DNA from: an uncultured Lachnospiraceae bacterium
Lineage (GTDB): Bacteria; Bacillota; Clostridia; Lachnospirales; Lachnospiraceae
NCBI GenBank assembly: GCA_947626475.1
Contig: CANQSK010000005.1
Span: 1-45,850 of the forward strand
Length of the DNA: 45,850 nt
Reading direction: 5' to 3'
Below the pieces are notes generated by a model, which was not told where the DNA came from, ran no database searches, and worked only from the letters and a program-made list of their open reading frames with translations. This document shows, piece by piece, positions 9,765 to 34,484 of the stretch; the stretch's first letter is position 1, and every line of letters begins with the position of its first letter. Made by a program: the position numbers and the translations under genes.

Positions 9765-10029
9765 ACGCTGCCATGAACATATTGCCGATAACTACGCAAA
9801 TTATACTATACTTACTCTCCGTTATTCAATACCCTTCCGGCAGACCGCTTCATATTTTGCAATATGGCGATCAAAGTATTAAATCCGCCGGCATCTCCGA
9901 CACACAGGAAAAATGAGCAATAAATAATCCCTGCAGGACCCGGAAACATCTTATCTGGTATCACATTCCGGACACGTCTCCGGCAGATTCCATGTACATT
10001 TTTTGATCACAAAAGGAGGAATTCTATCT
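9765..10029. other. Intergenic scrap region
   Basis: No coding frame is supported. The only recognisable content is the duplicated gene tail at 9883-9948 and the AAAGGAGGA ribosome site of the following gene. Confidence 0.6.
9883..9948 (+). repeat. Remnant 3' tail of a second PD-(D/E)XK gene
   Basis: 66 bases nearly identical to 10887-10951, the last codons, stop and left terminator arm of the intact gene downstream (differences: one base turning the stop TAG into CAG, one small indel). It ends inside the terminator loop, so the right hairpin arm is missing. It looks like what is left of a tandem or recombined paralogue. Confidence 0.75.
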
Positions 10030-10911
10030 ATGAACAATCTGACCCCTGATGCCTATACCGGTCCGGATCTGTCCCACCTTGACGGAGACCTGCCCGTCCA
10101 CATGACCAACGATTATCTTTTCCGGGCTGTTATGCAGGAGAACAACCATGTCCTCAAGGCTCTGGTCTGCTCCCTCCTGCACCTTGACAAAGCAGAAGTC
10201 AGCGACGTCTTAATCCAGAATCCCATCGAATTGGGACGGCACGTAGACGAGAAAGACTTCTTTCTGGATATCAAGCTTCTTCTGGACAGCCGCATGGTTG
10301 TCAATCTGGAACTTCAGGTGATCAATGAACGGAACTGGGTAGAGCGTTCTCAATGCTACCTCTGCCGTTCTTTCGACAGTTTGAACAAGGGTGAAAGCTA
10401 CAAAGACGTACTTCCCGCCGTCCAGATTGGGATTCTGAACTATACCCTGTTCCCGGATGCACCTGAATTCTATGCGACCTATCGCCTGATGAATATAAAA
10501 AGCCATAAAATATATGATGACAAACTGCGCCTCTCTGTGTTAGACTTAAAACATATAGAACTGACAACGGAAGAGGATAAGGCATATCAGGTTGACTGCT
10601 GGGCCCGCCTCTTTAAAGCGACTACATGGAAGGAGATGAAGGATTTGGCAGAACATGACTCCATATTTTCCGAAGCTGTCCGGACGGCTGTTGTCCTGAG
10701 CGGAGATGAAAAGATCCGTCTGCAGTGCGAGGCCCGTGAAGACTATTACCGAAGAACGGGCTGGAAAGATAATTATATCGAGCAGCAGACACAGAAAATC
10801 CGGCAATTGGACACGAAAATTCAACATCTTTCCTCTGAAAAACAACAACTGGCTTCCGAAAACCAACACCTACGCCAGCTTCTAAGATCCGCCGGCATCT
10901 CCGACACATAG
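10030..10911 (+). CDS. PD-(D/E)XK nuclease-family protein (Rpn/transposase-like)
   Basis: 293 residues of the PDDEXK_2 / Rpn recombination-promoting nuclease family. Seen: the N-terminal NDYLFRAVMQ, FFLDIKLLLD followed by VVNLELQV (the D...ExQ nuclease core, about residues 80-105), then SQCYLCRSFDSLNKGESY and the later LHDLKHIEL-like region. The last 40 residues form a Gln/Leu heptad coiled coil, common in the family. ATG at 10030 is chosen for AAAGGAGGA ten bases upstream. These genes are frequently duplicated and recombined, consistent with the tail fragment at 9883. Cellular role not established. Confidence 0.75.
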   Translation: MNNLTPDAYTGPDLSHLDGDLPVHMTNDYLFRAVMQENNHVLKALVCSLLHLDKAEVSDVLIQNPIELGRHVDEKDFFLDIKLLLDSRMVVNLELQVINERNWVERSQCYLCRSFDSLNKGESYKDVLPAVQIGILNYTLFPDAPEFYATYRLMNIKSHKIYDDKLRLSVLDLKHIELTTEEDKAYQVDCWARLFKATTWKEMKDLAEHDSIFSEAVRTAVVLSGDEKIRLQCEAREDYYRRTGWKDNYIEQQTQKIRQLDTKIQHLSSEKQQLASENQHLRQLLRSAGISDT

Positions 10912-12235: not shown

Positions 12236-13951
12236 CTATTTCTCCCTGCAGACCGTTCCGTTTTCCACACGGTAGATCCTGTCGCATCCTTCTATCGCTG
12301 ACATCCTGTGCGAAACGATGATCAATGTCTTCTGTCCTTTCAGGCGGTTGATGGAATCCAGGACAGCGGCCTCTGTCTTCAGATCCAGTGCCGATGTCGC
12401 TTCATCAAAAACGATCAGCGCCGGATCCCAATAGATCGCGCGGGCAAGCCCCAGCCGCTGACGTTCCCCGCCGGAAAGACGAATCCCCCGTTCCCCAATC
12501 TGGGTATCCAGGCCGCGGGGAAGGGCTCGTATCTTGTCGGCAAGGGCGGCCTTTTCCAGCGCCTCCCACACCTGATCGTCACGAATCTGCTCTTTTTCGA
12601 AGCCCATCGCTACATTATTCCGAACGGTATCATCCAGCAGAAATGTGGTCTGCGGCACATAAGCGATCTGATCGGGTATCCTGTATTGACCGGCGACAGG
12701 AACGCCGTCGATCAGGACCTGTCCCTCATCCGGCGCAAGCAGCCCGAGCAGGATATCCAGCAGCGTGGTCTTGCCCGCGCCGGAAGGGCCGATGATACCG
12801 ACCGATGTCCCCGCGGGGATCTCCATCCCCACATCCCTCAGTACGGTCTTCTCCCCACCATCGTAGGTATAGGACACGTGATCCAGCAGGATGGTCCCGT
12901 TCATATCCGGTTCCGTCTGACGGACAGGTGGCTCCTTCCCCTTTGCCGCCGTTTCCTCCATGGCGAGCCGGATCGCCTCCACGGATGTCTTTGCATAGCC
13001 CAGCCGGGTCAGGCCGCCATTGATCCGGTTGAATGCCGGCAAAAGGCGCACTGCCGTCCACGCCAGGGCCGAAAGGCTGGGCAGCTGATCGATCAGACCT
13101 TTTCCCGACCGCACAAAAAAGAGGAGATACAACAGCACGGTCAGCACCATGACACTCTCCATGCACAGAGACGGCAGCTTGATCCAGAACTGTCTCAGAT
13201 AATCGGAACGTAAATATTCCTCATCCGCTTCCTTAAATCTCTGTTCATAAAAAGATTCATGATGCCCGGTCTTAATGTCCTTGATCCCCTCGGCCATGTG
13301 ATGCAGCCACTTCCAGTACCTGCGGTTCGCGTCACGCTGCCGCTGCGAGGCTCTCCGGATCGGCCGGATGAGTATCACACGGATCAGCAGCGTCAGGAAC
13401 GCGATCCCTGCCACCAAAAAGAGCGTCATGACCGGGTCGATCAGTAACAGGCAGAGTCCCATTCCCAGCGCGGCGAGCGTTTCCATCAGGATCTGCATAC
13501 ACGCTTCAAGCCCCGCGGAAAACTGGAACATGTCCTGTCCGAGCAGGTTCTGAAGTTCCGCCGTGCTGTGCCGTATGAAATAAGTGTAGGGGCTCCGTAT
13601 GATGCGCTCGTACAGCCGCGCGGATACCTCATACCTTGCCCTACGGGCAAACTTCGCCGCAATATAATTCTCCCACGCCAGATACGGGAGCTTGAATGCG
13701 TATAACGCGATCAGCGCAAGGAGGAGCGCCTCCGTCAGGGCTGTTTCCGATCGGATCCGCAGGGTAGAGCGCAGCCAGAGCGCGATCGGGTCTTCTCCCA
13801 GCCGCGCGCTGTCCGAAAGGGAGGCGCAGATGGAGACGACCATGGTGAGGCCGGCCATTTCCAATAGGGATGCCAGCAGCATGGCGGGGATCAGGGCCAG
13901 CATCTGGTCCCTGCGCTTCGGCCCAATCAGGGTGATGATCGTTTTAATCAT
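12236..13951 (-). CDS. ABC exporter, fused membrane and ATPase domains
   Basis: 571 residues: six-helix type IV exporter domain (1-330) followed by a complete nucleotide-binding domain with Walker A GPSGAGKT (388-395), LSGGERQR (492-499), Walker B ALIVFDE (511-517) and the switch histidine in IVSHR. There is no C39 peptidase domain, so leader removal must be done by another protein. In context it is the obvious exporter for the peptide made by the maturation genes just upstream. A lipid-linked oligosaccharide flippase of the PglK/MsbA type is the alternative, given the glycan genes and LCP protein nearby. AGGACGTAGGAG precedes the ATG. Confidence 0.8.
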   Translation of the reverse strand: MIKTIITLIGPKRRDQMLALIPAMLLASLLEMAGLTMVVSICASLSDSARLGEDPIALWLRSTLRIRSETALTEALLLALIALYAFKLPYLAWENYIAAKFARRARYEVSARLYERIIRSPYTYFIRHSTAELQNLLGQDMFQFSAGLEACMQILMETLAALGMGLCLLLIDPVMTLFLVAGIAFLTLLIRVILIRPIRRASQRQRDANRRYWKWLHHMAEGIKDIKTGHHESFYEQRFKEADEEYLRSDYLRQFWIKLPSLCMESVMVLTVLLYLLFFVRSGKGLIDQLPSLSALAWTAVRLLPAFNRINGGLTRLGYAKTSVEAIRLAMEETAAKGKEPPVRQTEPDMNGTILLDHVSYTYDGGEKTVLRDVGMEIPAGTSVGIIGPSGAGKTTLLDILLGLLAPDEGQVLIDGVPVAGQYRIPDQIAYVPQTTFLLDDTVRNNVAMGFEKEQIRDDQVWEALEKAALADKIRALPRGLDTQIGERGIRLSGGERQRLGLARAIYWDPALIVFDEATSALDLKTEAAVLDSINRLKGQKTLIIVSHRMSAIEGCDRIYRVENGTVCREK

Positions 13952-13989
13952 GCTCCTACGTCCTTTCTACTGCCAACAGAACACGCCCG

Positions 13990-15156
13990 TTATCTTTCAT
14001 GATATATGATTACCGCGCCCGCTTCGCGGAGATTCCTCCGTCCATAGACGAACACGCCCCGGAAGAGCCTGTATACCCAGTAAAACGGCACAGCCCACCG
14101 ATGGCGGTAGACAAAGGGGGCTCTGAGCCGATACCAGTCCCACTCGGGAAAGAACCATCGGAACAGGTACCTCATTTTTGTCCGGGCCGTCACTGGTTTC
14201 TCGTCGTTCTGAATCCTGCGCAGCCCGGACTGAACACAATGGTCGATGGTTCCGTATACGCCGGAGCTCTCCGCCCAGTTCAGCATATCCCGTTCCCTCT
14301 CCGCCAGTTCCGGGCAGGGAACAGGACTAAAGAGCTTCTCCCCCAGGGAGCGGCAGACAGTCTCAAACTCCGTCAGTCCCAGCTTTCGCAGTTCTTCTCC
14401 GATATAAACGGTGTCCATCTCAGGCCTGGCCCGCCGGTACAGGTACACATCCAGCAGGGTGCGTAGCCCCGTGCCGTCTGTATAATAGTGCTTATAGGCG
14501 TGGGCGAGAAAATAAATATAAAAATCTTCGTCGCTGAAATGATATCCGAAGCGGTTGTCCACGTCTTTGATCAGCCGATCCCGCACGTTCCCGTAGTAGT
14601 CAGCATAGACATACAGGATATCTTTCCTGATATCCGCAGAGAACAGTTTCCGATGCATCTCAAAGTTGTATAGGGGCTGTTTATAGTAGACGTCATGTAT
14701 TCCAACACGAAACCCCTCTGCAGTGTAACCATTTCGCCTCATGTGCTTCCGCACATCGCGCCAGCGCTCCTCGTCAAAAAGGATGTCATTGTCCGCGAAC
14801 TGCCGCGTGCCGTACTGGGGATAATCAGTATTGATGACTGGGCCCTTTAATGGCGCATACCAGATGCCTTTTTCCTCCAGAGCTGTAAGGATCTTTCCCC
14901 GTTCCGCGTCCATAAGGATCGTCTTACGGACTGATCTGGCCTTCGCTTCCCGAAAGCGCTTCGCTGTCTCAGGGGGACAGTCCTCCATCAGGCCCGTCTG
15001 CTCCAGCGCCGCGCATACGGCGGCGGACAAAAGATGCCTGTTTGCTGTCTGAAAAAGCGCCTCATAATCCGGCGTTTCCGCCACATCCAAAACGGTTTCA
15101 TGGATCCATGCCGCCAAGAGACGGCACAGGGTCCGCACTGTGCTTTCCGTAATCAT
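13990..15156 (-). CDS. Nucleotidyltransferase-like protein (NTP_transf_5 type)
   Basis: 388 residues. Fold family recognised by the N-terminal helical region and the nucleotidyltransferase core WYAPLKGPVINTDYP...RQFADNDILF, where D-x-D after the glycine-lysine segment corresponds to the metal site. Such 'uncharacterised nucleotidyltransferase' proteins recur in gene clusters with PqqD-like and HPr-kinase-like proteins and may adenylylate or otherwise modify a peptide. The ATG overlaps the stop of the radical SAM gene (ATGA), so the two are translationally coupled. The precise reaction is unknown. Confidence 0.7.
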   Translation of the reverse strand: MITESTVRTLCRLLAAWIHETVLDVAETPDYEALFQTANRHLLSAAVCAALEQTGLMEDCPPETAKRFREAKARSVRKTILMDAERGKILTALEEKGIWYAPLKGPVINTDYPQYGTRQFADNDILFDEERWRDVRKHMRRNGYTAEGFRVGIHDVYYKQPLYNFEMHRKLFSADIRKDILYVYADYYGNVRDRLIKDVDNRFGYHFSDEDFYIYFLAHAYKHYYTDGTGLRTLLDVYLYRRARPEMDTVYIGEELRKLGLTEFETVCRSLGEKLFSPVPCPELAERERDMLNWAESSGVYGTIDHCVQSGLRRIQNDEKPVTARTKMRYLFRWFFPEWDWYRLRAPFVYRHRWAVPFYWVYRLFRGVFVYGRRNLREAGAVIIYHER

Positions 15157-16526
15157 ACTGTATCCGCCCGGGCCATGCGGCCCGCCTTCCATTCCTCATA
15201 GCAATTCAGAATGCCACGCTCCAACTTGATTTTCCTCTCCATCCTCTCGATTGGCGAACAAGATTCCACGCATGTCACGCATTTTTTCAGCCGGATACAT
15301 CGAGGATAGATGGCGCAGGTCCGGCACCTCTCTTCCGGTTCCCGGCGTTCCCGCCACTGCCGAAGCACTGCCTCATCCCGTTCTTCGGAGAAAACGCTGC
15401 CCCAGAGGCCCTGATCGATATGGGACTCGCAGCGCCCCAGGCGGCCCTCCGGCGTGATCGTGGCAGCGTTCGCTTTGTCTGACCAGCAGGAGTAGAGCAC
15501 AAGCCCCTGATACAGGGTACTTTTGATCGCCACGCCCTTTTGATCGAGATACGTCCACATCGCCCGGGCCTTTTCCGCCAGGGAGCGCCGCTCATCTTCC
15601 GCATAGCTATAAGGCTGTGAACCTTTGTTTTCAATAATAACTCTCGGTGCAATGCTGAAGCCCGGCTTTCCTCCAAACTGTGCTGTCAGTTTGTCTATCA
15701 ACGCATACAGATCACGCTCGTTATCCTCGTCCATGTTCATACGCACTTTGACCTGAACGCCAGCGTCCAGCAACAGATCTATATTTCCGAGTACCCGTTG
15801 AAAAGGACTGTCCTCTGAGTTGACGTATGCTTTGCGCCGGTTATAGACCTCCTCCGTGCCGTCCAGGGTGATCTGTACCTGTTCCAGCCCCCAGTCGGCC
15901 CTCGCCCGGGCTGCCAAGGTTTCGTCGAAAAGGGAACCGTTGCTGTCCATCCGGGAGCGGAATTCCACGCCCCGCTGGCGCAGAATGTCGGAAATTGTGT
16001 CGATAGCCTTTACATTCACCAACGGTTCGCCCCCGAACCAGACCAAATGGACCGGTTTTCCGCCGCAGTGGTCGGCGATGTATTCCCCCGCCGCCCGGGC
16101 GGTGTCCTCTGTCATGGTTGCCCGCCGGACGCCCGCTTCAAAGCAGTAGAAACAGCGGGCGTTGCAGGCGGTGGTGGTGAAGATAAGATACTCCGTCAAA
16201 GGGATGTCTTTTTCCATCAGACGTCGAGCAATGTCCCGCACCTGATCCGCCAGGGCCGTCTCGTCCGCCCCCTCTGGCACCAGGAACCGGTGAGAAACAA
16301 GCTCCGCCAGCGCGGCGGGAACAACGCCGGACAGTTTTTGAAGCTGCTCCGCTTCTTCCTTTTCCAGCAGGAGCAGTTCCCCCGTCAGAGTGTGGTACAG
16401 CAGGATCCCTTCCGGCTGTTCGATACGGATGTAATGCGTGGTCAATCGGTATGATGCCCCCTCATCCGGTTTTGGCGGTCTCAGTATCTTTTGTGTCAAA
16501 CTGACCGGCGAAACGATCTGCCGCAT
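15153..16526 (-). CDS. Radical SAM/SPASM peptide maturase 2
   Basis: 457 residues. An N-terminal domain of about 105 residues (EQPEGILLYHTLTGELLLL, then FLVPEGADE) precedes the radical SAM barrel with CNARCFYC (C121, C125, C128; the CX3CX2C cluster motif). The C-terminal SPASM region has a Cys-rich array (YSCW, GRCES, RCRTCAIYPRC, KKCVTCVESC), enough for auxiliary Fe-S clusters. SPASM enzymes install thioether, C-C or epimeric changes on ribosomal peptides. GGAGGAAATG sets the ATG at 16526. It is a close paralogue of the maturase just upstream (29 bases apart). The modification type cannot be read from the sequence. Confidence 0.85.
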   Translation of the reverse strand: MRQIVSPVSLTQKILRPPKPDEGASYRLTTHYIRIEQPEGILLYHTLTGELLLLEKEEAEQLQKLSGVVPAALAELVSHRFLVPEGADETALADQVRDIARRLMEKDIPLTEYLIFTTTACNARCFYCFEAGVRRATMTEDTARAAGEYIADHCGGKPVHLVWFGGEPLVNVKAIDTISDILRQRGVEFRSRMDSNGSLFDETLAARARADWGLEQVQITLDGTEEVYNRRKAYVNSEDSPFQRVLGNIDLLLDAGVQVKVRMNMDEDNERDLYALIDKLTAQFGGKPGFSIAPRVIIENKGSQPYSYAEDERRSLAEKARAMWTYLDQKGVAIKSTLYQGLVLYSCWSDKANAATITPEGRLGRCESHIDQGLWGSVFSEERDEAVLRQWRERREPEERCRTCAIYPRCIRLKKCVTCVESCSPIERMERKIKLERGILNCYEEWKAGRMARADTV

Positions 16527-16555
16527 ATCATTTCCTCCATACGCCGAGCCGCCGG

Positions 16556-17917
16556 TCAACTTTGCCCGGCGGCTTTCCACTCTTCATATACTCCTAAGAC
16601 TGCACGACGAAGCCTGTCTTCGCGATATGAACGCTCGATAGGTGAACAGCTCTCCAACCGACTTTTACATTTTTTAAGTCGAATGCACTGTGGATAGACG
16701 ACACATGTTCTGCATTCATCCTCATAAGGCTTGCGCTCCCGCCACTGGCGGAGCACCGCCTCATCCACTTCATCGGAGTAAATGCTGCCCCAAATGCCAC
16801 CGTCTTCGGCAGCTGAGCACCGGCTGAGCCTGCCATCAGGCATAACGACAGTAGCTCTGTCATTATCGGCAGCACACGCATTTAATGTAAGATTGCGCAT
16901 CATCGGCGCCACAGCCATTATGCCCTTTTTTTCAGCATAAGAACGCATCGACTGCGGCTTTTCGGCGTAGAAGCTGTTTTCTTTCACCGTATATCCTAAT
17001 GCGTCTGTTCCGGCAGTCCTTTGAATTACTATCGGATAGATGCCAAACCCCGGCTTCCCGGCAAACCGTTCCGCAAGTTCGTCTATCAGTATATAGAGAT
17101 TCTGTTCGTTGTTCCCGTCCATATTCAGGCGGATCTTTGCCGAAATACCCGTGTCAAGCAAAAGACCGATGTTATTGAGCACGCGTCTGTACGGGCTCCC
17201 GTCAGAATTGACATACGCCTTGCGCTTGTTGTAGACATCCTCCGTGCCGTCAAGCGTGATCTGTACCTCCTCCATATTCCACTTGTCCCGCGCACGCAGC
17301 ACGAGTGCCTCGTCGAAGAGATAACCGTTGCTTGTCATCGTGGAATGAAATTTAAGTCCCTGCTTCCGAAGAAAGTACGTTATTATGTCAATGGCCTTTG
17401 TATTTACAAGCGGCTCTCCTCCGAACCAGTGGATATAGACCGAATTGCCGCTGCAGTGCGCCGCTATATACTTTGCCGTGTCAATGGCGGTCTTCTCCGT
17501 CATTGTACTCTTTTTCCAGTCTGCCTCGTAGCAGTAAAAGCACCGCGCGTTGCAGTCAGTTGTTGTGAGGATCGTATATCCTGTCAGAGGCGCCTTCTTT
17601 TTTTTCTTAAAATGCTCTGCGATTTCACGTACCTGACCGGCCAGAGCCGCCTCGTCCGTACCCTCGGGAACGAGGAAGCGGCGAAAAACCAATTCTGACA
17701 AATCAGGCGGAGCCGAGCCGGGGAGTTTCTCCGTCAGCGCCGCCTCATCCGGTGTCAGCAAGAGAATCTCCCCGGTCAGAGTATGGTACAGCAGGACACC
17801 CTCCGGTTGCTCGACGCGCATACATTGCACGCTCATCCGATACGGGATTTCATCTTTTCTCTTCTGCGTCCCAAGTATTTTTTTGGCGATTTTTATCGGT
17901 GGAATTATCTGCTGCAT
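16556..17917 (-). CDS. Radical SAM/SPASM peptide maturase 1
   Basis: 453 residues, same layout as the following maturase: N-terminal domain (1-110), radical SAM motif CNARCFYC (C122, C126, C129), FGGEPLVN, and a SPASM Cys array (LNACAAD, SRCSAAED, ECRTCVVYPQC, KKC, LESCSP). It begins 37 bases after the stop of the 39-residue peptide, with GAAGGAG before the ATG, so it is the most direct partner of that precursor. Lysines 104-108 are encoded over an A8 run (T8 on the plus strand, 17598-17605), a possible slippage site, here in frame. Two tandem paralogues for one precursor suggest two successive modifications or a shared heteromer. Confidence 0.85.
   Translation of the reverse strand: MQQIIPPIKIAKKILGTQKRKDEIPYRMSVQCMRVEQPEGVLLYHTLTGEILLLTPDEAALTEKLPGSAPPDLSELVFRRFLVPEGTDEAALAGQVREIAEHFKKKKKAPLTGYTILTTTDCNARCFYCYEADWKKSTMTEKTAIDTAKYIAAHCSGNSVYIHWFGGEPLVNTKAIDIITYFLRKQGLKFHSTMTSNGYLFDEALVLRARDKWNMEEVQITLDGTEDVYNKRKAYVNSDGSPYRRVLNNIGLLLDTGISAKIRLNMDGNNEQNLYILIDELAERFAGKPGFGIYPIVIQRTAGTDALGYTVKENSFYAEKPQSMRSYAEKKGIMAVAPMMRNLTLNACAADNDRATVVMPDGRLSRCSAAEDGGIWGSIYSDEVDEAVLRQWRERKPYEDECRTCVVYPQCIRLKKCKSRLESCSPIERSYREDRLRRAVLGVYEEWKAAGQS
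17598..17605. repeat. Homopolymer run (8 bp) inside maturase 1
   Basis: Eight T on the plus strand (A8 in the coding strand) within codons for a lysine run at residues 104-108. The frame is intact in this sequence; a one-base change would truncate the enzyme before its radical SAM motif. Confidence 0.9.
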
Positions 17918-17954
17918 ATAATCTCCTTCAAATTATGATGTCTCGGCAAATATT

Positions 17955-18074
17955 TCAGGATCCTTCTGCCAGGGATCCGCCATTGTCGCAGCAATTATCC
18001 CCGCTAGCAAAAATGATATCTTCCTCATTGATCACAACGATCTCCATCACAGGGTTTTCATATTTTTCTTTCAT
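17955..18074 (-). CDS. Candidate RiPP precursor peptide (39 residues)
   Basis: A 39-codon frame with AAAGGAGA eight bases before its ATG sits between the S26-like peptidase gene (79 bases upstream) and maturase 1 (37 bases downstream). It begins MKEKYENPVMEIV, continues through an acidic, hydrophobic stretch (INEEDIIF), then has a small-residue motif ASG at 23-25 and a 14-residue tail DNCCDNGGSLAEGS. That layout, a conserved-looking leader with KYENP and an E-rich helix, then a short Cys/Gly-rich core, is typical of precursor peptides beside PqqD-like proteins and SPASM maturases in gut Firmicutes. It ends in serine, the residue phosphorylated by HPr-kinase homologues of certain lasso clusters. 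No homologue search was possible. Confidence 0.75.
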   Translation of the reverse strand: MKEKYENPVMEIVVINEEDIIFASGDNCCDNGGSLAEGS

Positions 18075-18153
18075 GACTTTTTCTCCTTTCAGCAAATTTG
18101 CTTTGATTTATATCCTGCACGAACGGGAAAATGTCCCCGCCCGATTCAGGCGT

Positions 18154-18600
18154 TCAGTTATAGCGCTTCCCCAGCTTTTTTCTGATTCGACCGGGCAGGG
18201 CCAAGCACCACAGGATAGCTGCTCGAAGCCAAAACAGATCGCACCAAAGATGTACATACAGCCGGTAGTGCGGGTCTGTCACCGGGATCTCTTTTCCGTC
18301 TCTCACAAAGGCGGTCAGCACACCGACGATCTGCCGGTCGGTGACGCCGTATTCCCTCCGCCACTGGTTGTCGCCGCAGAGTACATAGCCGTCTTTCCGC
18401 ACTTTCAACACACGGTGGAGCACATACTGGCCCGAGTTTCTCTTATAAAGAGTCACATCGTACCGTTTTAATCGTCCAGAGGGCCGTTCCACAATGATCA
18501 AGTCTCGCTTCGACCGCAGCATGGGCAGCATGCTGGTCCCTGCGCCGGTATACACAAGCTTCCCGTCCCGGGCCAGCACCTCTTCAAAGCTGGCGCTCAA
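18154..18600 (-). CDS. S24/S26-type signal-peptidase-like protein
   Basis: 148 residues with the S26 fold: GAGTSMLPML carries the nucleophile Ser23, DVTLYKR...YVLHRVLKV places His62 where the archaeal/ER-type signal peptidases use histidine instead of the bacterial lysine, and GYVLCGDN supplies Asp77. There is no N-terminal membrane anchor; a weakly hydrophobic segment lies near residues 115-135. In this setting the likely job is removing the precursor leader, and ASG in the precursor fits the small-residue preference of signal peptidases. It overlaps the PqqD-like gene by four bases. Confidence 0.7.
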   Translation of the reverse strand: MSASFEEVLARDGKLVYTGAGTSMLPMLRSKRDLIIVERPSGRLKRYDVTLYKRNSGQYVLHRVLKVRKDGYVLCGDNQWRREYGVTDRQIVGVLTAFVRDGKEIPVTDPHYRLYVHLWCDLFWLRAAILWCLALPGRIRKKLGKRYN

Positions 18601-18851
18601 TCTTCGATAGCTCCGATGGAACGCAGCTCTTCCAGCACCTTCGCCACGTCCTTTTCAATGACCTCCCGCGGCGCGTCGTACTTCGCCTCCATAGCGTCCA
18701 CGATCCGCTCCATCGTTGTGGGTTCTTTCAGCGACTCAATGATGAACGCGGCGGTCTTGTTGCTCCGGACCACGCCGGAAAAGCCCTCCGTTGACACCAT
18801 AGTGTGCTCTCCGCTGGCGGCATAGGTGATAAATGTGTCTTTCAGTTTCAT
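18597..18851 (-). CDS. PqqD-like RiPP recognition protein
   Basis: 84 residues. PqqD-fold proteins bind the precursor leader and deliver it to the maturases. Seen: an N-terminal beta region with ...TEGFSGVVRSNKTAAFIIE, then the helical part TMERIVDAMEAKYDAP and DVAKVLEELRSIGAIE, the typical PqqD end. Its start and stop overlap the neighbouring genes (ATGA at both ends), so HprK-like, PqqD-like and peptidase proteins should be made in equal amounts. Confidence 0.8.
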   Translation of the reverse strand: MKLKDTFITYAASGEHTMVSTEGFSGVVRSNKTAAFIIESLKEPTTMERIVDAMEAKYDAPREVIEKDVAKVLEELRSIGAIED

Positions 18852-19615
18852 AATGATCCTCCTTCACTCATAGTTTCGTAAGCGATGCGGGCCGCCTGAA
18901 TATCCGGGGTACAGCGCAGCCGGTAAAGACGGGCCTGCTTTGAGAGGATATCCGTCATAGCCAGTACCCGCTTCAGCTTTTCCGGTTCCGTTGGCCGGTA
19001 ACTCTGTCTCCAAAGCATCGGCCACGCCTCTTTCGCGGTAATGACTTCCATACTGTTTTCTTCCCCTCGCTCCAAAAGGCAAATTGCCCGCAACGGTGCG
19101 GAAATATTACTGCTTAAGCGATGTTTTCCGTCCCACGGCGTCCCCCAGACGGTAACGCCCGAGTCAGAAATGGCGAGAAGGGGTTTATCATCATTCACCA
19201 TAACGACCTGTCCGCCCAAAAGCTCCCGCCAGAGCCGGGCGTGAGTGGACTTCCCCATGCCGCTTTGCGCGGCAAAAAGATAACATGCGCCATCCACCGC
19301 CAGGGCTGAACCGTGGAACAGAAGGATGTCGTATTCTATCAGGCTCTCGGCAAGCTTGCGGTAAACAGCCAGTGTCTCCAGATATGCATCGTGGCTGTAC
19401 CCCCCCAATTCCCTTTTCTCTGACCTTCTGCGCTCATCGTCAATATCCCTCTGACTGATCGACAGGAACAGCTCAGGATTTTGTTCCGTCCGATACTCGC
19501 TGCATATTGTGTGTATCTTCGGATACAGCGAGCATATTTCTACCGTATGGCCCGCAAACCGATAAACATGTTTTTCCATATTTTTAACAGAGTCCACGCT
19601 TGTCTCTATTCTCAC
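18848..19615 (-). CDS. HPr kinase-like protein (possible peptide kinase)
   Basis: 255 residues from a GTG at 19615; an in-frame ATG at 19579 is the alternative and neither has a strong ribosome site. Residues 95-125 have FHGSALAVDG and Walker A AAQSGMGKST (115-124), followed by VMVNDDKPLL and GTPWDGKHRLSSN. These match HPr kinase/phosphorylase C-domain homologues that lack the regulatory N-domain, including PadeK of the paeninodin lasso pathway, which phosphorylates the C-terminal serine of its precursor. The 39-residue peptide downstream also ends in serine. It starts 15 bases after the stop of UDP-glucose dehydrogenase copy 1, so expression by read-through is plausible. Confidence 0.75.
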   Translation of the reverse strand: MRIETSVDSVKNMEKHVYRFAGHTVEICSLYPKIHTICSEYRTEQNPELFLSISQRDIDDERRRSEKRELGGYSHDAYLETLAVYRKLAESLIEYDILLFHGSALAVDGACYLFAAQSGMGKSTHARLWRELLGGQVVMVNDDKPLLAISDSGVTVWGTPWDGKHRLSSNISAPLRAICLLERGEENSMEVITAKEAWPMLWRQSYRPTEPEKLKRVLAMTDILSKQARLYRLRCTPDIQAARIAYETMSEGGSL

Positions 19616-28500: not shown

Positions 28501-28560
28501 TACATAACCGGCGCCGAAAACTGTGATTCTGCTCTCTTTCATGTCTTGTCTTTTTCTCAT
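27316..28560 (-). CDS. ugd: UDP-glucose 6-dehydrogenase, copy 2
   Basis: 414 residues, nearly identical to copy 1 (19631-20944) except at the N-terminus and for the missing 29-residue insert. Same functional motifs: [18 protein letters not shown], and [15 protein letters not shown] with the catalytic cysteine. The ATG at 28560 overlaps the stop of the preceding gene (ATGA), supporting this start over the internal ATG at 28542. Two copies in one locus should raise UDP-glucuronate supply or reflect two merged polysaccharide modules. Confidence 0.9.
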
Positions 28561-31167
28561 TCTGAAAATTTTACTACCATCATATTATTGACTATCCGTA
28601 TCGACCCGTCATTTGGATAAACCGTCATCGCCTGAACCTCCGGCAGGTCTTTCACATCATCCGGATTTCCCCAGACCGGCGCAAAACCATTCCAGTGCTG
28701 TATATAAGTCTTCATTGTCTGACCATGGTTTAATAACCCATCCAATCTTGTAAAATAGTGACCCGATTTATAATTCTCCCAATCAAATCTCCGATCTTCC
28801 CCTATCCCTGTATATCTTCCGACAAATACGACAGGCATATCTGCCTCGTATCCCTCCATACTTTCTATCCGTGTAATCAGCACTGTAAAAAAGGTTTGCG
28901 CTTGTGACTGAATAAATTCCGCCCTGAAATATTCCACATTCGCATAGCATACATATACACTGATAATACCTGCCATACTCCACAGTACACCATAATGGCA
29001 AAATATCTTATAACCCTTTTGAATCTTATCCGCCAGCCTTGATCCTCGCATTTCACCGGCAGCCATCTTCTCTCCGATGGTGACAAACAGCAACAAAGCG
29101 ATAACAAAACCATATTCCATGATCAGATTCGGCTCAGACGACGTCATAACAAAAATGAGATTCACGGCAAGCGGAACAGCCGCATACATCATTGTCAGCA
29201 GAAGTCCCTTGCAGCGTTCCTTACGCCAGACCATAATAATGTCAACAAAAGCCATCAGTATAAAAATAACTGTTAATATTCGAATTAGGTACATCGCAGA
29301 CGGTGTACAAGACAGATCCGTAACAGATGTTGCCAGTAAATACCATTTTCCATAGGCTCGTCCGACCAGTTCAGGGTATATCTGATCAATTTCACGGTAA
29401 GCCGACAACTCCGTAGATGTAAAATGGCAGGCCAGATAAGTCAGTATAAAATATAGAGCCAGTCCCATGCATAACGTCACCAGATACCTTCCGGCCGTTT
29501 TTACCAGCGATTTTATGTTTTCTGTGCTGAAACCGCACTTCAATATCATTACACCCAGCAGGGAAGCAGCCGCAATCGGAAAATACGCCTGATAGATTCC
29601 CATTGCCAGAGCAATCAGAATTACCCCCCCCGATACTCCCTATATACGAGTATTCTTTGATCATATAAACGGCAATTACTGTCAGAAGAACCGAAAAAAA
29701 GTAATATGGCGCGGTAAACATTACGGCAAACGTAGAAAATACCGTTGGGAATACACTCACAATCGAGCCTGCCAAAACACAGCCCTGCATGGAACGAATC
29801 TCTAAAATATCCACAAGTATTGCTGCAGATACTGCTATGAAAATGATTGAGATCAAACCGTTCAGCCAGGGTAAACTGTAAAGCCCATAAATCTTGTTCA
29901 CTGCCTCCCCTAATAATCCCAGCATCCAACGTCCGGAAGAATATGTCACTCCGACGCCGAATAAATTATGTATATCGTCCCCAAAAGAAAGCTTATTTGT
30001 CAGCATATAAATATGAGTCAGAATACCCACGATAAATGCAGACCAAAATGTCTGTTTGTGCCAGGGCTTAATCTTTAATCTTCCTTCTCTCTCCCTTTTC
30101 CAAACAGCCGATATTCTCATCGCAGCCCGGATTGCCCAGGAAATTCCGTTCATAACCGGAACTGTCTGCATAATCTGCCTTTCACCATTCGTCTTCCTAT
30201 AAATAGCATCTGCTATCGTCAAAAGAAATACATTATTTGTCAGGCGATACCAACAGGGGCTTCTCAGCCCTGCCAGAGAACAGAGAAAAAGAATCGTTAC
30301 CAGTTCGCCTTCTCCCTGTTTTCCAAGATAAAACATCGTATAAATATAACTCGCCGCCACCAAAAGATACATTACTAATCCATATTGCTTAAAAAGACTG
30401 TTATAAGAGTTCGTTACTCCTGTATCCTGAATGTTCAATATGGCACATACCGCTTGAATGACAACCAACATCAGGGATATGCAGGCCAGATATCTGACGT
30501 AAGCAGTCTCCCATCCCTTCTCCAAACACTTCCTGTAAATCATATGCAATACTGCCAACAGCATTAAGCATCCGGCTGCCGTCAGACTGTTTGGAACTAA
30601 TAGAAGAAATAATGCCGCTGCCGCAAGCCATATCATATCTTTGCCGCGGATTTTCTGACGATTTATGTAATAACAACATAACACCAGCTGCAGAACGTAA
30701 GCACCCAGTTCATCCACATTTTCAAATCCCCAGGAACGGCGCACCAACCAGCCCCGATAAATTATCTGCCCCCCGATCATTCCGAGAAAATATAATACAA
30801 ACACGCCAGGAATCATTGTACACAAAACAATACCGGCGATTCGGACCAATTCGTCAGATTTCTCATTTTTTGCCGCAATGATAAACAGCCACGCTGATGC
30901 GATATACCTGTTACCGGCAAGTATCGTACTGACTGCTACTAATAAAGACAGCATAACCAATACTATCGCTTCCTTTTTCGTATAATACAAAATCCCTGTA
31001 ATCTCTACTCCAAGAAGCAGTAAGCAAAGAAACGCCTGTATGGAGCTGAACGCTTCAATCTGCACCGAAAAAGTTTGCCGCAGCATCGTATGAGAAAGAA
31101 TCTCTGTACTAAACCAAAATCCAAAAACTACTTTATATAAATATTTTTTTATTATACAGAAGTTCAT
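28557..31167 (-). CDS. Wzy-like polymerase fused to GtrII transferase, frameshifted at G8
   Basis: Two frames form one gene interrupted at a run of eight G (29624-29631). With seven G the reading continues from ...SIGG into [14 protein letters not shown], exactly as in the paralogue at 31188-32753, giving 869 residues. The first 380 residues resemble the polymerase-like proteins at 23531 and 34490; the rest is a GtrII-type glucosyltransferase ([44 protein letters not shown] and a C-terminal extracytoplasmic part). GtrII enzymes add side-branch sugars from polyprenyl-phosphate donors. As given, a 591-residue truncated product results. AGGAG precedes the ATG at 31167. Phase variation or a sequence error are both possible. 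Confidence 0.7.
29624..29631. repeat. G8/C8 homopolymer tract, frame-breaking
   Basis: Eight C on the plus strand (eight G in the coding strand). Seven or ten G would restore the Wzy-GtrII frame. This is the classical form of a slipped-strand contingency tract. Confidence 0.85.
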
Positions 31168-33049: not shown

Positions 33050-34484
33050 TTATTTACCGTTAAGCAGATCTGATATCCCACTAGACAAGTATTTTATCAA
33101 CATCCACTCTAAAAACATAATCCCGAAAAACAATCCCATCCCAACCAGTATTTTAAGCAGGACTGCTTTCCATAGATAAAAACCCGAAAAACGAATAAGC
33201 CGGAGGATTACGAACATAACCATACCTCCACCGATAAAATGGAAGGATGCCGCTATATATTTTTTTAAAGGCAATTCTTTCCTTACAATAAAGCAATGAC
33301 CAACACAAACAAGCATTTCCGTTATCAATGTTGCTGCTCCTGCTCCGAATGCGGCGAAATGTGGAATCAATACTGCGTTGAGAATCACATTACATATAGC
33401 ACCTAGCAAAAGTATCGACGCATATTGTATATCCATACCGTGTGGAAGCAAATATTGTGTGCGAATCACACTGGCAAATGCCTGAAACAAACAACACGGT
33501 AACAGGATCCGTAAAATACTCACGCATTCATCAAACCCTTTTCCGAAAAACAACGGAACAAACTCATCCGCAATACCCATAAGTCCAAAACTCAAGGCGC
33601 TTGTTGCAAACATCAAAAACAGAATTGAACGATAAATATAAAACTTTTCCCCCTTCACTGGCCGCTTTGCGTTCATCAGACTGCTAATCCGGGGCAACAT
33701 CACTCCTTCAAGAGAAGTAACCAAGGCTAACGGTATATGCAGGACACGTTCGCTGCTCTCATAGTAGCCAACTTCTTTCATTCCTGAAATCGCTCCCAAC
33801 ATGACTTTATCCAGCTCCCGGTATATACTAACTGCCAAAATCGGCAAAAAAAAGTACAAAGACCGGCCGCAAATGCTGCCGCAGATTTAACCTGCTTTTA
33901 GGAAAACTGACATTTCCATAAAGACTGATACACACCCAGATATTTACCGCGAGTGTACATCCGGAAACAATCAATGCATAAAGCCAGACATCCTCCTGCT
34001 TTTTGATAAATGTCAATACACAAAATAGCATTATAATCTTGATAACAAAATTCCTGAATACAACAATTCCAAGCCTCTCCATTCCAAAGAAAAACCATGT
34101 TACATCAAACGCATTTGCTGCAAGCATAATTAAAAATGTCCAGGCGACCGCATCATTATCTAGAACAAACACAACAAATATGCTATATCCGATAGTGACC
34201 AGAACAGTGAAAAACATCTGCAGGAGACAGATTTCAAAAAACGACTGACTTTTCTGCATCAAATCTCTGTTCACCTTGGCTATGGCACGACTCCCATATC
34301 TGCTTATGCCCAACTGCGCGAATGCCAGAAAACAGGTAACAAATGCATAATAATAACCATACTGCCCAATACCATCGCTGCCCAGCGTTCTGGTTAGATA
34401 AGGGGTCATAATGACAGGCATGACCAAACCAAATATGTGATAACTACAGTTAAGGATGTAATTCTTCCTTATAGTATTTTCCAT
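33050..34484 (-). CDS. Wzx-type flippase 2, frameshifted at a T8 tract
   Basis: Two overlapping frames make one PST-family flippase. The N-terminal 218 codons (NYILNCSYHIFGLVMPVIMT, PYLTRTLGSDGIGQYGYYY) run to a stop just after eight T (coding strand; A8 at 33846-33853). With seven T the frame joins ...VFVLFLPILAVSIYRELDKVML and continues to 33050, giving 477 residues, normal for the family. AGGA precedes the ATG at 34484, six bases after the polymerase stop. As given, the flippase is truncated. Flippase 1 at 22083 might substitute if specificity allows. Confidence 0.75.
33846..33853. repeat. A8/T8 homopolymer tract, frame-breaking
   Basis: Eight A on the plus strand; seven (or ten) would restore the flippase 2 frame. 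Same length and same effect as the G8 tract 4.2 kb away. Confidence 0.85.

Follow-up and report, generated by a model that had tools for sequence, protein, structure and literature searches.

Genes and precursor peptide of the locus

The window examined here is a stretch of 45,850 nucleotides from an uncultured Lachnospiraceae bacterium (contig CANQSK010000005.1, assembly GCA_947626475.1). Eight genes on its minus strand, running from position 19615 to 12236 with 4-bp overlaps at three of the seven junctions, correspond to a cluster for a ribosomally synthesized and post-translationally modified peptide (RiPP). Their order is an HprK-like kinase (18848..19615), a PqqD-like RiPP recognition element (RRE, 18597..18851), an S26/SipW-like leader peptidase (18154..18600), a precursor peptide of 39 amino acids (17955..18074), two radical S-adenosylmethionine (SAM)/SPASM maturases (16556..17917 and 15153..16526), a nucleoside triphosphate (NTP) transferase (13990..15156) and an MsbA-like ATP-binding cassette (ABC) exporter (12236..13951). 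An earlier note on this DNA had described these genes in this order and had related part of the set to some lasso peptide loci; both points are borne out, the former by gene positions and Pfam matches. The note's further statement, that no named RiPP class has this set, does not hold: six of its core parts correspond to those of the Linear Polyphosphorylated Peptides (LPP) of Popov et al. 2026 (PMC13381572), the kinase, RRE, peptidase, NTP transferase and exporter being LppK-, LppB-, LppS-, LppN- and LppD-like, respectively.

The kinase exhibits no Pfam match. Structure comparison of its predicted fold suggests an HPr kinase/PEPCK fold, from which its likeness to LppK is taken, and the Walker A residues (S118-G-x-G121-K122) and H125 are invariant in 11 aligned rows. 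The RRE matches PF05402 (E-value = 4.2e-16). A search of its profile against solved chains returned lasso and LPP RREs (6jx3, 5v1u, 9x8z), with TfuB1 (E-value = 4.8e-7), TbiB1 (1.2e-6) and LppB 9x8z (1.6e-4) being the only three below 0.001. Its residues N31, Y58 and D68 occupy the positions of LppB N33, Y60 and D70, N31 being invariant in 15 rows, and as in LPP loci the RRE is a discrete gene beside the precursor region. Matches of the leader peptidase to signal peptidase families are weak; Ser23, His62 and Asp77 are kept in 18 of 18 sequences, and the Ser-to-His spacing of 39 equals that of LppS. A structure model of this S26 protein was poor (mean pLDDT 67.6) and was not used. The NTP transferase matches PF14907 (E-value = 1.9e-42) and the exporter PF00664 and PF00005, its NCBIfam matches of the PglK/MsbA type lying below cut-off.

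Both maturases match PF04055 and they are 54% identical to each other. Ten cysteines, three of the radical SAM motif and seven of the SPASM type, are invariant across 33 maturases. Among the 25 matches listed for each, no NCBIfam model was above its cut-off, the best being TIGR04463 (165 bits for maturase 1 and 144 bits for maturase 2, against 525). The best solved relative is 5wgg (E-value = 5.7e-20), which we take to be CteB, a thioether-forming ranthipeptide maturase. Maturase 2 falls within a clade of 10 rows that is well supported (100/98); of the maturase-1 types, the two from one locus (L019) are sisters (99/91) and the remainder is poorly resolved. The proposal that the maturase N-termini are themselves PqqD-like RREs found no support (probability 0.3%). 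Viral contigs contain three relatives at 32-35% identity, with no other cassette part beside them according to local hidden Markov models (HMMs).

The 39-mer, MKEKYENPVMEIVVINEEDIIFASGDNCCDNGGSLAEGS, is a true precursor. It is preceded by the ribosome-binding site AAAGGAG and begins with a leader shared by the precursor open reading frames (ORFs) of related loci, MKExYExPxxEI..DIIxxS, which is followed by variable cores. When the window peptide was left out of the leader HMM, the 39-mer was still recovered with an E-value of 6.4e-16, the next of 1267 segments scoring 2.2. Ser24, located 19 residues after Tyr5, is invariant in the 20 aligned precursor rows; Asp19 and Ile21 are invariant too, and 6 to 22 residues follow Ser24 in the close group of relatives defined below. 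In one of these (L013) the enzymes are close to those of the window (82% identity for the kinase, 96% for the RRE and 93% for the exporter) but the tails after Ser24 differ (GGTCECNQSPAECP in L013, GDNCCDNGGSLAEGS in the window), so that cores evidently vary. In the window's own genome, the leader profile matches a single precursor, and the kinase query likewise has just one match. The precursor profile exhibits no better match in the PDB than an E-value of 0.57, and 18 precursors searched against NCBIfam gave a best E-value of 0.043 with none over cut-off.

Coupling of radical SAM genes with a core cysteine

Relatives of maturase 1 (E-value<=1e-40) are present in 4 of 397 family genomes and the NTP transferase (E-value<=1e-10) in 3 of 26 genus genomes, the window's own genome being included in both counts. 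A contig scan with both maturases returned 20 loci, 11 of them close (L012-L022, 51-65% identity) and nine distant (L023-L031, 37-41%). The close-locus records are marked 'Lapin', presumably for a rabbit source, and six of the nine distant records name rumen or omasum. A leader-bearing small ORF lies upstream of the radical SAM genes in all 11 close loci and in seven of the nine distant ones (none in L023 and L027). Conservation of the 39-mer beside these enzymes, which the earlier note had set in advance as its test, is thus observed throughout the close loci; seven of these (L012, L013, L014, L016, L018, L021 and L022) had contributed rows to the leader profile, and the independent finds are those in L015, L017, L019 and L020 only. 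The series HprK-PqqD-S26-precursor-radical SAM is complete in seven close loci (L013, L015, L017, L018, L019, L021 and L022), followed by the NTP transferase in six (the L019 contig ends earlier) and accompanied by the exporter in five. Radical SAM genes number one to three per close locus. In three satellite loci (L014, L016 and L020) the precursor and radical SAM genes stand by themselves, the remaining cassette genes being absent; L014, which retains a PqqD remnant, is from the same assembly as L013, and L016 from the same assembly as L017. L012 is a 3.9-kb contig.

Two further observations concern these loci. Some 250-340 bp upstream of the kinase gene, a resolvase or phage-type integrase gene is present in four of the seven full close clusters (L015:7343-8008, L018:2702-3148, L021:6931-8046 and L022:5351-6466), hinting at mobility. 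A TupA-like ATP-grasp is fused to the NTP transferase in L018 (6611-8701) and, by eye, in the congener locus L032 (8205-10295), and lies beside the satellite precursor in L016 (7061-8044).

The radical SAM genes are coupled with a cysteine in the core. Downstream of Ser24, a cysteine is present in 20 of the 21 precursors that belong to radical SAM loci (the window and L012-L031) and have a recognizable Ser motif, versus one of 33 elsewhere (Fisher P = 1e-12, related rows not being independent); with position 22 taken as the core start, the counts are 21/21 versus 3/33. The single exception elsewhere comes from L033, where a radical SAM relative of greater distance lies on the same contig. Identical sequences, leader matches not below an E-value of 0.001 (L079, L034) and two peptides without the Ser motif (the third ORF of L019 and the second of L033) were left out of this count; the dropped L034 peptide is Cys-rich and near a radical SAM gene. 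The cysteine also tends to be near Ser24: the first one lies at most five residues from it in 19 of the 20 Cys-bearing tails, against a mean of 10.9 tails in shuffles (P = 0.0002). As a separate observation, the L033 and L034 stretches (G109) exhibit PqqD-like and distant radical SAM genes together with Cys-bearing small ORFs of DVI/NII type.

A kinase tree of 28 rows (L085, a partial sequence, and L076/L077, 621-aa proteins, being left out) requires three changes of the radical SAM label, versus about nine in shuffles, none of the 500 being as low. Within the radical SAM clade of this tree is nested L032 (99/95; 100/96 with L017), a congener's cassette in which no radical SAM match was found and whose 28-mer precursor is free of Cys. 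Its placement is consistent with the enzymes and the Cys precursor having been lost or replaced together.

The same cassette exists in the family without radical SAM genes. A kinase search (E-value<=1e-12) gave a match in 62 of 299 family genomes, and seven of 20 kinase neighbourhoods (L067, L068, L069, L070, L071, L078 and L084) combine kinase, RRE and S26 peptidase with NTP transferase and/or ABC exporter, while others hold parts of the set. No gene similar to the window maturases was found at these seven loci within the stretches covered. The radical SAM enzymes are thus rather an addition to the cassette than a replacement of lasso enzymes, as the earlier note had it. Several of these loci encode small peptides that follow the pattern YExPxxEIIxFxxEDVITTSG. 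A profile built from 18 peptides of this kind matched 20 of the 299 genomes, 19 of which are kinase-positive (Fisher P = 1.5e-13); leaving aside the window's own genome and the four genomes that gave rows, 14 of 15 are kinase-positive (P = 3e-10).

The sole precursor-positive genome with no kinase match (L136, G291:C9) exhibits an NTP transferase (37% identical) beside its precursor. Dispersed YxxP...DVITxS peptides of family genomes (L120-L139) lie directly beside secreted-protein genes in about 13 of 20 loci, as judged by eye. Ten such secreted proteins were scanned, and seven contain Pfam domains, including GH53, GH10 with CBM, GDSL lipase, BspA-type LRR, F5/8C and cohesin.

Predicted product and biosynthetic steps

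Taken together, the window probably contains a RiPP cluster of LPP type to which a radical SAM step has been added, and the product of the cluster would be an exported cross-linked phosphopeptide of about 18 residues. Counted in favour are the six core parts of the LPP set, the precursor in all 11 close loci, the coupling and the position of the cysteine, the nesting of L032, the satellite loci and 5wgg as the best solved relative of the maturases. In the proposed scheme, the PqqD-like RRE would bind the YxxPxM motif (residues 5-10) of a predicted leader comprising residues 1-21 (18012..18074), as suggested by register with the LPP motif; Y-16 and P-13 of the LPP leader are reported to be important for RRE binding (PMC13381572). 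The HprK-like kinase would phosphorylate the invariant Ser24, perhaps several times, LppK being reported to place several phosphates onto core Ser3, and the NTP transferase would probably decorate the resulting phosphate. At a cysteine a few residues after Ser24 (Cys28 and Cys29 in the window), one or both SPASM enzymes would introduce a Cys-based cross-link, which is most likely a thioether. This bond type is suggested by the ten invariant maturase cysteines and by 5wgg as best solved relative. The S26 peptidase would cut off the leader, probably after Ile21, and the ABC exporter would release the modified peptide.

The predicted cleavage site follows from the LPP register. LppS together with LppB cleaves after T-1; if Ser24 (19 residues after Tyr5) is equivalent to Ser3 (18 after Tyr-16), the core probably starts at Phe22. 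This favours an 18-residue core, residues 22-39 (FASGDNCCDNGGSLAEGS, 17958..18011), over the 14-residue one of the earlier note, and it would place the invariant Asp19 and Ile21 at -3 and -1 relative to the cut. For the 18-residue core the calculated [M+H]+ is 1703.63 unmodified, 1699.60 with two links and 1779.56 with two links plus one phosphate, compared with 1398.49 and 1341.47 for unmodified cores of 15 and 14 residues. The analysis itself shows the gene set, the identity and conservation of the precursor, the likeness of the RRE to leader-binding RREs, the coupling of radical SAM genes with core Cys and the lack of a lasso B2 peptidase. Phosphorylation of Ser24, the cleavage site and RRE-dependent cleavage are in this way inferred from LPP experiments by others, and the thioether chemistry, the role of the NTP transferase and the order of steps from enzyme family only. 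A different assignment would have the kinase target the C-terminal Ser39, with a cut after Ser24 or Gly25 and a core of 14 or 15 residues. The window core does end in serine, and paeninodin-type kinases modify a C-terminal Ser (PMC8498205). We nevertheless regard it as quite improbable, since just one of 14 complete close-group precursors has a C-terminal Ser while Ser24 is invariant in 20 rows, and LppK modifies Ser3, near the cut.

Several observations weigh against an LPP-type cluster with a radical SAM cross-link. The leader exhibits YxxP and Ser without the HQ and FET of the LPP consensus (YxxPxVLxHQxIxFETxxS), and its Ser follows the Tyr at a distance of 19 residues instead of 18; the locus is accordingly filed as an LPP-type variant and not as a plain member. 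The triad Asp of the peptidase lies 15 residues after the His, versus 25 in LppS, and LppN is reported to have been inactive in a heterologous host, its deletion causing no change there. The first of two precursors in L017 has a Cys-free tail although radical SAM genes are present there. Six of the nine distant loci, where several contigs are short, yielded no kinase, so that phosphorylation need not go with the radical SAM step; a PqqD-like protein was found in seven of the nine. Radical SAM, RRE and Cys precursor may have been a unit of their own joined later by an LPP cassette, or the cassette may lie elsewhere in the genomes of the distant loci. Finally, no Asp/Glu acceptor pattern follows the cysteine: such a residue lies within 1, 2 and 3 positions in 6, 11 and 13 of 20 tails, against shuffle means of 6.5, 10.0 and 12.2. 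Since sequence does not reveal which bond is made, this acceptor pattern is missing and the maturases lack an above-cut-off model among the matches listed, the radical SAM enzymes of an LPP-type cluster could instead perform other chemistry (a C-C or ether macrocycle, epimerisation or another oxidation), with the cysteine serving for metal binding, redox activity or a disulfide. The close coupling of cysteine with the radical SAM genes and the resemblance to 5wgg make this a minor, though real, prospect compared with the cross-link.

The flanks of the cluster contain capsule-type genes: a LytR-type protein, UDP-glucose dehydrogenase, flippases, glycosyltransferases, GtrII-type proteins and ATP-grasp proteins. 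LPP clusters are often located in capsule loci (PMC13381572), the surroundings of L013 look similar by eye, and related peptides are encoded beside secreted enzymes. These features raise the idea that the NTP transferase attaches the phosphopeptide to the capsule or wall polymer of the surrounding genes, with no free peptide made. It is compatible with the scheme above and differs in the end product, and as an end product it is unlikely: an exporter is present, and the neighbours of L015, L017, L018, L021 and L022 form no capsule locus by eye.

Elsewhere in the window, a GtrII-type gene and a flippase gene (28557-31167 and 33050-34484) are each in two overlapping pieces in different frames, and a 302-aa ORF (10003-10911) resembles, by eye, an Rpn/PD-(D/E)XK nuclease. 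PADLOC returned nothing but ABC-type and viperin-type matches (E-value<=1e-5).

Comparison with known systems

The locus has features in common with several known systems. In the SynChlorMet cassette, two radical SAM/SPASM proteins likewise accompany an HprK-like and a PqqD-like protein. The window proteins score far below its NCBIfam models (16.3 of 125 bits for ScmC, 39.7 of 400 for ScmE), and ScmD is not among the RRE matches; no relevant SynChlorMet paper was found among those listed from the open-licence PMC subset. With ranthipeptides and sactipeptides (TIGR04463, CteB 5wgg) the locus shares SPASM maturases beside a Cys-bearing precursor, and differs in that the curated TIGR04463 cut-off is not reached. 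To our knowledge, a kinase, an NTP transferase and an S26 peptidase are not usual in ranthipeptide or sactipeptide loci.

Phosphorylated lasso loci of the paeninodin/pseudomycoidin type, as described in PMC8498205, PMC7533575 and PMC5067487, have the RRE, HprK-like kinase, NTP transferase, exporter and YxxP-type leader in common with the window, which instead of a B2 peptidase and a cyclase has an S26 peptidase and radical SAM enzymes. These common parts would suit a lasso cluster served by a cyclase and B2 peptidase from elsewhere. The leader peptidase PF13471, however, has no match in the window's own genome and none over cut-off in 15 genomes (three below), and a Pfam scan of ten window proteins revealed no Asn-synthetase-like cyclase. 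The absence of both, as the earlier note had it, is upheld; lasso membership was rejected for want of the PF13471 peptidase, and such action from elsewhere is scarcely credible.

The likeness to LPPs is the closest: HprK-like kinase, discrete RRE, putative SipW-like peptidase, PF14907-type NTP transferase, MsbA-like exporter, a capsule locus, and a YxxP leader with Ser 18-19 residues downstream. The window differs by two added radical SAM/SPASM maturases and a Cys core, by another gene order, and by its host, gut Clostridia instead of Bacilli. As to a match of the whole set to a described class, kinase, RRE, S26 peptidase, NTP transferase, exporter and precursor correspond to LPP, and the radical SAM pair and the Cys core fall outside it; the observation of the earlier note is confirmed and its interpretation partly supported. 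The LPP main text contains neither 'radical SAM' nor 'SPASM', 'Lachnospir' or 'Clostridi'. In the open-licence PMC subset no paper was found that pairs radical SAM with HPr kinase in a RiPP context or that treats phosphorylated ranthipeptides of Lachnospiraceae, and leader strings led to unrelated papers only; among the papers listed for the LPP names, the LPP paper itself was the one judged relevant; in that subset and the LPP main text, no description of a radical SAM branch of LPP-type clusters was found.

We consider it an even matter whether the locus represents a RiPP class of hybrid nature. In such a class, a single short peptide for export would combine a (poly)phosphorylated and perhaps further decorated Ser with an adjacent radical SAM-made Cys cross-link, satellite precursor/radical SAM loci would depend in trans on a central LPP-type cassette as well, and the whole would form one branch of a gut-Clostridia YxxP...DVITxS family with other members encoded beside secreted enzymes. 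If true, serine phosphorylation and radical SAM chemistry would act on one substrate, and the branch would tie a broad set of unannotated small gut-Clostridia peptides to processing machinery. The Cys-bearing branch with its very short cores offers a compact system for learning the roles of the phosphate and the NTP transferase. Compared with the core set, known since 2026 (PMC13381572), what is new here is the tandem of radical SAM/SPASM maturases and the Cys core.

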